Assembly (NCBI GenBank): GCA_006515835.1
Contig: VFBG01000014.1
Coordinates: 1-32,827, forward strand
From: a bacterium
Lineage (GTDB): Bacteria; Pseudomonadota; Alphaproteobacteria; Caulobacterales; Caulobacteraceae
DNA: 32,827 nt
Reading direction: 5' to 3'
Shown here: piece after piece, positions 25,801 through 28,175 of the stretch
Numbering within the stretch: the stretch's first letter is position 1
Layout of the letters: every line of letters begins with the position of its first letter
Notes under the pieces: generated by a model
What the model saw: only the letters and a program-made list of their open reading frames with translations
Told to the model about the DNA's origin: nothing
Database searches by the model: none
Made by a program: the position numbers and the translations under genes

Positions 25801-27254
25801 ATGAAGATCGAATTCGTCGCGTCTGCGGGCGCCGCCGAGGTTCTGGCCGTCCTGGTCTACGAAGGCCGGCTCCTCTCAGGCATGGGCCCACAGCTCGACA
25901 CGGCGACCTCCGGCGCCTTGACGAAGGCTATGTCGGCGGGTCGCTTCAACGGCGGTTCGAACAGCACACTGACGATCGCCGCTCCGGCCGGGGTCGAGGC
26001 CGGGACCATCCTGCTCAGCGGCGCAGGCGAATCCGGAAAGTTTGACGACCTCGCGCTCGAGGCCGCCGCCGGCGCCGCCTATCACGCGGTGAAACTGTCG
26101 GGCGCTGCCGCCCTGACCATCGACGCGACGCACCTGTCCGCCGATCAGGCGGCGCGTGCGGCCTTCGCCGCTCGTCTGGCCGCGTACCGCTTCCTCAAAT
26201 ACCGCACCACGCTGAAGCCCGAGAAGACGCCTTCGATCGAAGCGATTCGCGTCGTCGCCGCCGACCCTAAGGCCGCCGAGGCCGCCTATGCGGCTCTTGC
26301 CGCGGTCGCCACGGCCGTCGAGTTCGCCCGCGACCTCGTGGCCGAACCGGCCAACGTCCTCTACCCGGAAGAATATGCGAAGCGTGTGAAGGCGCTCGAG
26401 AAGCTTGGCCTGGAGGTCGAGGTCCTCGGCGAGAAAGAGCTTGAGAAGCTCGGCTTCCGCACCCTGCTGGCCGTCGGTAGGTCGTCATCATGAAGTGGAA
26501 CGGCGGCAAGAAGGGCGACCAGCCGATCGCCTTCGTCGGCAAGGGTGTGACATTCGACACCGGCGGCATCTCGATCAAGCCGGCGGATGGTATGGAAGAC
26601 ATGAAGTGGGACATGGGCGGCTCGGCCGCCGTGGTCGGCCTCATGCACGCGCTCGCCGGCCGCAAGGCGAAGGTCAATGCGATCGGCGTCATCGGCCTGG
26701 TCGAGAACATGCCGGATGGAAACGCCCAGCGTCCGGGCGACGTGGTCATGTCACTGTCGGGCCAGTCGGTCGAGATCCTGAACACAGACGCCGAGGGCCG
26801 CCTCGTTCTGGCGGACTGCCTCTGGTACACCCAGGACCGGTTCAAGCCGAAATTCATGCTCGATCTCGCGACCCTGACCGGTGCCATGATCGTCGCCCTC
26901 GGGCTCGAATACGCGGGCGTGTTCTCCAACTCGGACGAACTGGCGAACAACTTCCTCACCGCGGGTCCCAAGGTTGGCGAGAACGCCTGGCGGATGCCGC
27001 TCCCGGCCTTTTACGAGCGCCACATCGACACCCCGATTGCCGATGTGAAGAACACCGGTAACGGCCGCGCCGGTGGCTCCATCACCGCCGCCCTGTTCCT
27101 GCAGCGCTTCACCAACGGCGTGCCCTGGGCCCACATCGACATCGCCCCGACGGCCTGGGTCAAGGATAGCCGCAATCCGACCGTTCCGGACGGCGCTGTC
27201 GGCTGGGGCGTGCGCACGCTCGACCGGATGGTCCAGGATTCGTACGAGGCCTAG
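25801..27254 (+). pseudogene. pepA: Leucyl aminopeptidase, reading frame interrupted near 26478 (true lesion or assembly error)
   Basis: ORF 25801-26493 ends ...[14 protein letters not shown]; the downstream frame continues [47 protein letters not shown]...[14 protein letters not shown]. Confidence 0.93.
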
Positions 27255-27260
27255 GCCGGA

Positions 27261-27716
27261 ATGACGACCACCACAGTCCCTTCCCCCCTTGCGGGGGAAG
27301 GTGGCCGGCGAAGCCGGACGGATGGGGGGTGGGCGTCTGCTCGTCGTGGACGCAAGAAGCCGACGCGGGCCGAGAAGGCGTTGTGGATTCACATCCGCAA
27401 CCGTGGAATCGATGGTCTGCGATTCCGACGCCAAATGCCGCTCGGTCCCTATGTCGCTGACTTCTGCTGCCCAGCCATCAAGCTCGTCATCGAAGCGGAT
27501 GGCGGGGTTCATGCGTTGCGAGAGGTGGAAGACAAGGTCCGGGACGACTGGCTGCGGTCCCAAGGTTTCGTCGTCCTTCGCTTTCCGAACCAGACCATCC
27601 TCGGACGGCCGGACATCGTCATCGGAAGTATCCGGGCGCATGCCGCCAAGGCCGGTGTACCCACCCCCCATCCGTCTCGCTCCGCGAGCCACCTTCCCCC
27701 GCAAGGGGGGAAGGGG
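27261..27716 (+). CDS. DUF559 endonuclease-like (Vsr/PD-(D/E)XK-like) ORF, no own stop codon, in frame with downstream holC
   Basis: PTRAEKALWIHIRNRGIDGLRFRRQMPLGPYVADFCCPAIKLVIEADGGVHALREVEDKVRDDWLRSQGFVVLRFPNQTILGRPDIVIGSI matches the DUF559 pattern. Confidence 0.9.
27278..27333 (+). repeat. Left arm of inverted REP-like pair flanking DUF559
   Basis: CCCTTCCCCCCTTGCGGGGGAAGGTGG CCGGCGAAGCCGG ACGGATGGGGGGTGGG; 56 nt with two hairpins. Confidence 0.96.
27660..27715 (-). repeat. Right arm of inverted REP-like pair flanking DUF559
   Basis: Reverse complement is CCCTTCCCCCCTTGCGGGGGAAGGTGG CTCGCGGAGCGAG ACGGATGGGGGGTGGG; identical to the left arm except within the second hairpin. Confidence 0.96.
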
Positions 27717-28175
27717 ATGAGTGATGGTCCGGAAATCTGGTTCTACCACCTTGAGCGGTCAACCCTGGAACAGGTGCTGCCCGGCCTGATGGAGAAGACG
27801 CGCGAGCGGGGCTGGCGGGCGCTCGTGCGCGCCGCCGACGCCCGTTTGCTCGACGATATCGATGAGCGTTTTTGGACGTATCGAGACGACAGCTTCCTGG
27901 CGCATGGCAGGGCGTCCGGGGCGGAAGCAGCGCGGCAGCCCATACTGCTGACCGAATCGCTTGAGAACCCGAACGGCGCTCAGGCGCTGTTCATTGTGGA
28001 CGGCTCAGAACTGGGCGACACGAAAGGTTTCGAGCGATGCTTCATCATCTTCGACGGACGCGACGAGACGGCGCTGACGGGCGCGCGCGTCCGGTGGAAG
28101 TCGCTGAAGGATGCGGGCGCGGCGCTGGCCTACTGGAAGCAATCTCCGGAAGGACGCTGGGAAAAGGCGGCCTGA
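27717..28175 (+). CDS. holC: DNA polymerase III chi subunit
   Basis: EIWFYHLERSTLEQVLPGLMEKTRERGWRALVRAADARLLDDIDERFWTYRDDSFLAHGR...QPILLTESLENPNGAQALFIVDG. ATG abuts the right repeat arm. Confidence 0.93.
   Translation: MSDGPEIWFYHLERSTLEQVLPGLMEKTRERGWRALVRAADARLLDDIDERFWTYRDDSFLAHGRASGAEAARQPILLTESLENPNGAQALFIVDGSELGDTKGFERCFIIFDGRDETALTGARVRWKSLKDAGAALAYWKQSPEGRWEKAA

Follow-up and report, generated by a model that had tools for sequence, protein, structure and literature searches.

A DUF559 nuclease gene between inverted triplex-type repeat arms at the pepA-holC junction of a Brevundimonas genome: a candidate nuclease-associated mobile repeat family

A small gene of the DUF559 nuclease family lies between two inverted, structured repeat arms at the junction of pepA and holC in a Brevundimonas genome, on a stretch of 32,827 nt that was analysed as a whole (the window). 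On present evidence, this locus probably belongs to a mobile repeat family of REPIN/RAYT-like organisation served by a Vsr-like nuclease, with the segment 27278-27715 as its gene-bearing form; neither movement nor cleavage was observed. A bolder version, which we regard as a real possibility but are not yet ready to back, is that this is bacterial mobile DNA of a new kind, in which a solitary Vsr/EDxHD-type nuclease reads a triple helix at the ends of the element and moves arm pairs without a gene as well as its own gene, and that such nucleases, including YcjD of E. coli, are the enzyme so far missing for the BoxC/PIT repeats.

The source of the window is a Brevundimonas MAG of 2.7 Mb in 324 contigs, 82% complete. 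The two arms, at 27278-27333 on the forward strand and 27660-27715 on the reverse strand, are 56 nt long each, 91% complementary and separated by 326 nt; no further arm of this type was detected in the rest of the window, nor in 20 shuffled windows. Between them, at 27336-27638 on the forward strand, lies a PF04480 (DUF559) domain (E 2.5e-33; 112.9 bits against a Pfam cut-off of 20.6). PF04480 is the only family matched by the enclosed gene, and its membership of DUF559 is certain. The arrangement reported in an earlier note on this DNA, a DUF559 ORF between inverted 56-nt arms, is therefore real. The frame that starts at the ATG at 27261 is free of stops through the left arm, the DUF559 domain, the right arm and HolC as far as 28175 (forward strand, 304 aa), with PF04480 at residues 26-126 and the HolC domain PF04364 at residues 158-289. 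Since the HolC coding region (DNA polymerase III chi; 27718-28175, forward strand), downstream of the element, has its own ATG directly 3' of the right arm, the DUF559-HolC fusion is an open frame only, and its product is uncertain. Upstream of the element, the 3' part of a pepA-like gene (26490-27254, forward strand) was recognised from the M17 signature NTDAEGRL in its translation, without a family model. Several other DUF559 matches of relatives also lie within very long open frames, of up to 791 aa, so that read-through into the downstream gene may recur.

Both arms fold as previously described, into a 9-bp stem, a small second stem of 5 bp and a G-rich tail. In the left arm, the outer hairpin CCTTCCCCC-CTTGC-GGGGGAAGG occupies 27279-27301, the inner hairpin approximately 27305-27317 and the tail GGATGGGGG 27320-27328; in the inverted right arm, the corresponding parts lie at 27714-27692, approximately 27688-27676 and 27673-27665. 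The arm plan thus consists of a 9-bp pyrimidine/purine outer hairpin, an inner hairpin of variable sequence and a G-rich tail; the inner hairpin is absent from many other arm classes, with a spacing of only 2-3 nt between hairpin and tail. The tail mirrors the purine strand of the outer hairpin and does not complement it: GGATGGGGG is the exact mirror of GGGGGAAGG when A is read as A or T, at 9 of 9 positions in both arms. Other classes display mirror pairs of their own, namely GGGGAGAAGG with GGATGAGGGG, GGGAGAGGG with GGGTGTGGG or GGGTGAGGG, and GGGGGAAGGG with GGGATGGGGG. Among 102 arms of relatives, 82 are mirrored perfectly by their own tail, compared to 1.6% for the tails of other classes and 17 for a copy in the same direction, and class permutation of these arms gave 0 in 1000. 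The tail base facing an A of the stem is A in 106 cases, T in 89 and another base in 5. In strongly asymmetric stems, where mirror and copy can be distinguished, the tail is a mirror in 39 of 42 cases and a direct copy in none, which rules out the tail as a direct copy of the stem.

Comparison of 28 arms of the same type, 2 of them from the window, showed the structure to be conserved in 99.5% of cells, with the pairing of the inner hairpin held through two-sided changes (48 cells altered on both sides; covariation score of 0.303, versus 0.069 in shuffled controls and no more than 0.055 in slid ones). Columns 6/18 of alignment A2, which form a stem pair, co-vary with tail column 47, T-A going with A in the common class and C-G with G in the window. 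The mirror tail and its A/T tolerance follow the rules of purine-motif intrastrand triplexes (G*G:C, A*A:T and T*A:T, antiparallel). By their letters, the arms have the design of an intrastrand DNA triplex, and formation of such a triplex by the window arms in vivo is inferred.

This anatomy assigns the arms to the triplex-forming BoxC/PIT type of repeat and not, as the earlier note had it, to REP-like sequences. Knowledge of BoxC/PIT repeats in E. coli dates back to the 1990s, and intrastrand triplex repeats were reportedly the subject of earlier work by Hoyne and Maher. E. coli MG1655 carries 23 copies of these repeats, also termed TM, and over 260 genomes contain them; CD and NMR have demonstrated that the E. 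coli motif forms a triplex in vitro (Holder et al. 2015, PMC4666352). No association with transposons was found in that study, the flanking genes showed no functional correlation, and no partner gene was reported, with nuclease, ycjD and Vsr all unmentioned (PMC4666352). Like the window arms, BoxC/PIT repeats combine a pyrimidine/purine hairpin with a mirror third strand; they are intergenic, sometimes arranged as inverted pairs, and strain-variable in E. coli. They differ in that Holder et al. allow a loop of 1-6 nt, whereas the loop between stem and tail in the window is 18 nt long and holds the inner hairpin. The canonical letters CCCTCTCCC..GGGAGAGGG..GGGTGAGGG are not met by those of the window, CCTTCCCCC..GGGGGAAGG..GGATGGGGG; they are present at other DUF559 loci of the same genome and class. 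Many classes of the window type thus depart from BoxC/PIT in their letters, in the extra inner hairpin and in their tie to DUF559. Literature mentioning DUF559 or ycjD yielded nothing concerning repeats, as far as titles, abstracts or passages go and with subscription journals largely outside the search. BoxC/PIT arms and DUF559 were each known already, and no link between the two turned up in the literature searched. BoxC/PIT repeats have so far lacked a partner gene or an account of their spread; DUF559 is a candidate partner, and the link makes the origin, spread and function of these repeats directly testable, including in E. coli K-12.

The placement of DUF559 in a Vsr/PD-(D/E)XK-like nuclease family, stated in the earlier note, is supported by structure. 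An AlphaFold2 model of the protein (pLDDT 88.8) was closest in Foldseek to 3hrl (NGO0050), followed by the catalytic domain of I-Bth0305I (3r3p) and by Vsr (1vsr), and E14, R33-Q34, D43, E54, D56-G57 and R70 are invariant in 56 DUF559 sequences. By predicted fold and conserved acidic residues, the window protein meets the description of a PD-(D/E)XK nuclease of Vsr/EDxHD-like type; DNA cleavage is inferred. YcjD had already been placed near Vsr as a predicted PD-(D/E)XK nuclease (PMC1189080). The domain, fold and conserved residues are those of the DUF559/YcjD family (PF04480; 3hrl, NGO0050), which was previously without a link to repeats. The EDxHD/Vsr-like homing endonuclease I-Bth0305I (3r3p) has a similar catalytic-domain fold and is likewise a nuclease of mobile DNA, but it homes to one allelic site, whereas the DUF559 element occupies many sites and has structured arms. 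The Vsr mismatch endonuclease (1vsr, 1cw0) and Caulobacter VsrA, which carries DUF559, have a related fold; they differ in acting in mismatch repair linked to a methyltransferase, and no arms are described for them in the portion of the source at hand (PMC12907096). VsrA (CCNA_02930) triggers the SOS response in cells without the methyltransferase ScmA (PMC12907096), an effect consistent with DNA cutting in vivo. If the reading proposed here is true, it provides a function for DUF559, a widespread and uncharacterised family of small nucleases.

The linkage of arms to DUF559 genes was surveyed in 41 genomes of the genus and order, with 111 DUF559 matches and with 26 HolC loci as a control whose top score, 30, served as the cut-off. 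Inverted flanks scoring above 30 are present at 73 of the 111 DUF559 loci and at none of the 26 HolC loci, an enrichment that the idea of a nuclease-tied repeat had implied. Scores of at least 50 were reached at 61/111 loci, compared to 5% of cross-locus pairs, a baseline that itself contains shared arm families; detectable inverted arms are missing at 38/111 loci of relatives, and related sequences in these counts are not independent. The genome of the window has 5 DUF559 genes, 4 with clear arm pairs of differing letters and 1 with a one-sided arm. In genomes with several arm loci, 58 of 59 right arms find their best partner in the left arm of the same locus (22 expected), and arm similarity climbs from approximately 0.30 to 0.68 with protein identity (Mantel 0/999, overall Spearman 0.16). 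When each Alphaproteobacterial family was represented by one genome, 13 of 28 DUF559 loci reached a score of at least 40 (cross-locus 95th percentile 39), obvious arms being missing at about half of the loci in this class sample. DUF559 loci with arms are also evident in non-alpha Pseudomonadota, in Deinococcus and in Phycisphaerales.

Repeats and gene also occur together across genomes. A BoxC-class pattern was found in 23 of 114 Alphaproteobacterial genomes, 22 of which have DUF559, and a reversed control pattern gave no match. Taking one genome per Alphaproteobacterial family and strong domain matches, DUF559 is present in 20/21 genomes with repeats and in 8/91 without (p=9e-15; p=2e-12 when restricted to genomes of at least 1.8 Mb). 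The corresponding figures for other Pseudomonadota are 15/22 and 5/114 (p=6e-11); the 7/22 repeat-bearing genomes outside Alphaproteobacteria without detected DUF559 have to be seen alongside a first-look detector that misses some genes, including ycjD in the E. coli control. The genus members without DUF559 (G013 and G024) have no arms of class A or B, and G007 has 73. Within the genus, arm copies, counted genome-wide by pattern matching, are only modestly more numerous with a DUF559 gene of the same class than without (p=0.02).

Arms were also found elsewhere in the genome, where the window class recurs as inverted pairs of 146-148 bp without a gene. Forty gene-less pairs from 4 relatives (L265-L304) measure mostly 144-153 and 166-173 bp, with one of 124 bp. 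These length clusters (about 146 and 168 bp, and the single 124 bp) differ by about 21-22 bp, i.e. roughly two helical turns. The base directly outside the arm is T in 46 and C in 27 of 80 cases (73/80 T or C). No target-site duplication was detected among the 40 gene-less pairs (in-register identity averaging 0.275 nt, against 0.26 after shuffling), so that this mark of a classical insertion sequence is lacking. A phage origin (one distant phage match only) and a defence system (no PADLOC match) were rejected. The sites of gene-less pairs are empty in close relatives. One-hairpin remnants where relatives hold a pair, in G012 (L209) and in E. coli strains (L344, L345), look by their sequence as if the middle between two palindromes had been deleted.

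The proposal that the element inserted between pepA and holC holds in part. The junction lacks DUF559 in most of 61 genus genomes, and empty sites were found in G012 (HolC 97% identical) and G014 (89%). As these are between-species comparisons with diverged intergenic DNA, the exact boundaries of the element are uncertain. A simple single insertion is not supported: in G018, which carries a related DUF559-holC arrangement, the left neighbour is not pepA, so that the history of the site must be more complex and a rearrangement at the left arm is possible. DUF559 lies beside holC in several Brevundimonas species (G000, G018, G015, G366, G346), and DUF559 loci elsewhere are mostly scattered.

The likeness to REPIN/RAYT systems consists in a solitary gene flanked by inverted structured arms and in dispersed gene-less inverted pairs of near-fixed size. 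The difference lies in the enzyme, HUH/Y1 there and PD-(D/E)XK here, and in the arms, which are of triplex type and not REPs tagged with GTAG or CGTC. RAYT (Y1_Tnp, PF01797) is absent from the genome of the window and from 38 of 41 genomes searched (found in 1/25 genus genomes and 3/41 overall), and no GTAG or CGTC tag was found at the hairpin base in the arms inspected. With both Y1 enzyme and REP tag sought and absent, the element is not a member of REPIN/RAYT. The suggestion of an analogue in which a nuclease takes the place of the Y1 transposase is consequently supported as regards the gene-arm association and the absence of RAYT; active mobilisation by the nuclease is inferred only, as are its binding and cutting of the arms. 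None of the three conditions that the earlier note named as refuting it applies: DUF559 genes are enriched between cognate arms, the arms recur elsewhere in the genome, and close relatives have empty sites at pepA-holC. A possible scheme is as follows. The arms would fold on one strand into a hairpin with a third strand, as an intrastrand purine-motif triplex, and what DUF559 would most likely recognise is its own cognate arms in this folded state, probably on DNA that is single-stranded during replication. It may then nick the pyrimidine-rich outer edge of the arm (T/C before CCTTC), so that the arm pair, whether or not it encloses the gene, could be excised or copied and enter new intergenic sites without target duplication. 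The short elements scattered through the genome, about 146 or 168 bp long, would be the same arms without a gene. Such a scheme would be functionally analogous to RAYT/REPIN, with unrelated enzyme and ends, and, if true, would represent a means of dispersing repeats whose evolution was independent of RAYT.

The main rival to a nuclease-served mobile repeat is genome maintenance, in which the nuclease removes or resolves triplex or hairpin blocks at replication forks and persists beside its own substrate without mobilising it. This is consistent with the Vsr-like fold, with the genome instability to which triplex repeats are tied in E. coli (PMC4666352) and with internal deletions leaving one hairpin in E. 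coli strains and at one Brevundimonas site. It leaves unexplained why the gene lies between its own cognate inverted arms (58/59) and why gene-less pairs of near-constant size are dispersed, and we consider it unlikely, if still to be reckoned with. DUF559 could also be a passenger, its genes picked up by arms that an unknown other enzyme mobilises, given that its catalysis is unproven and that arm-less DUF559 genes exist. We find this improbable in view of the co-occurrence of repeats and DUF559 across families, the parallel divergence of arms and protein, the lack of RAYT and the absence of any other gene from the elements.

Little remains for the other readings. The proposal made for Caulobacter VsrA (CCNA_02930), a Vsr-type partner in mismatch repair for a cytosine methyltransferase, draws on the functional link of a DUF559 protein to ScmA (PMC12907096). 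Applied here, it sits poorly with genomes that have several divergent DUF559 copies, all with arms of their own, and with pepA and holC as neighbours at the window locus, and is very doubtful. A reading of the arms as ordinary terminators of transcription, or as regulatory hairpins, that flank small genes by chance would suit intergenic hairpins beside genes, yet the HolC control loci lack arms, and we give it scarcely any credence. We also know of no role of mirror tails in termination. Earlier work found neither promoter nor terminator activity for PIT elements, as reviewed in PMC4666352. Least credible of all are REP sequences moved in trans by a RAYT (Y1) transposase: the arrangement does resemble REPIN/BIME, but the arms have no GTAG/CGTC tag and the rarity of Y1_Tnp noted above would have to be an artefact of genes hidden in the 18% of the MAG that is missing and in missing parts of the other genomes.

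In E. coli K-12, the DUF559 gene is ycjD, and BoxC copy 9 (TM_ECO no. 9; 1,351,204-1,351,239) lies approximately 170 bp from its end. A long further palindrome, CACCTCATTCTGACAA...TTGTCAGAATGAGGTG, is apparent upstream of ycjD (MG1655 1348500-1353500, L246). E. coli strains vary in their inverted BoxC pairs: at hrpB-mrcB, some have no pair and others retain only one hairpin of it. In a spread sample, the median number of other repeat places is 19 in 37 records with ycjD and 3 in 22 without (p=2e-8). This difference is confounded by phylogroup: without ycjD, strains of O157 type retain about 13 repeat places, compared to 1-3 in other strains lacking the gene. The fabI-sapF interval was rejected as a clean empty site for ycjD, because strains without the gene carry the operon eefRABCD there, a location already known in E. 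coli (PMC12817139).

Some arm-less DUF559 genes occupy defence-like contexts. On cyanobacterial plasmids, DUF559 genes without clear arms lie beside a BREX-type pglX (Synechocystis, L254) or a DUF1156 gene (PCC 7002, L260), neighbours which suggest a separate, defence-linked branch of DUF559. In Sinorhizobium meliloti Ak57 (L257), each flank of DUF559 is a seemingly complete arm-pair element, the two in inverted orientation, with an ISRm16 transposase gene nearby; a nested insertion is possible. Two DUF559 elements of differing arm classes lie approximately 2.5 kb apart on one Brevundimonas contig (G000 C193, L174). A DUF559 gene is annotated within the pnt (NAD(P) transhydrogenase) cluster of a Sphingomonas parapaucimobilis plasmid (L256), and another contig of the same Brevundimonas genome (C211, L004) apparently has one in its pnt cluster too, as read off the sequence and untested, so that this cluster is a possible insertion hot spot, or the site of an old insertion, for DUF559.
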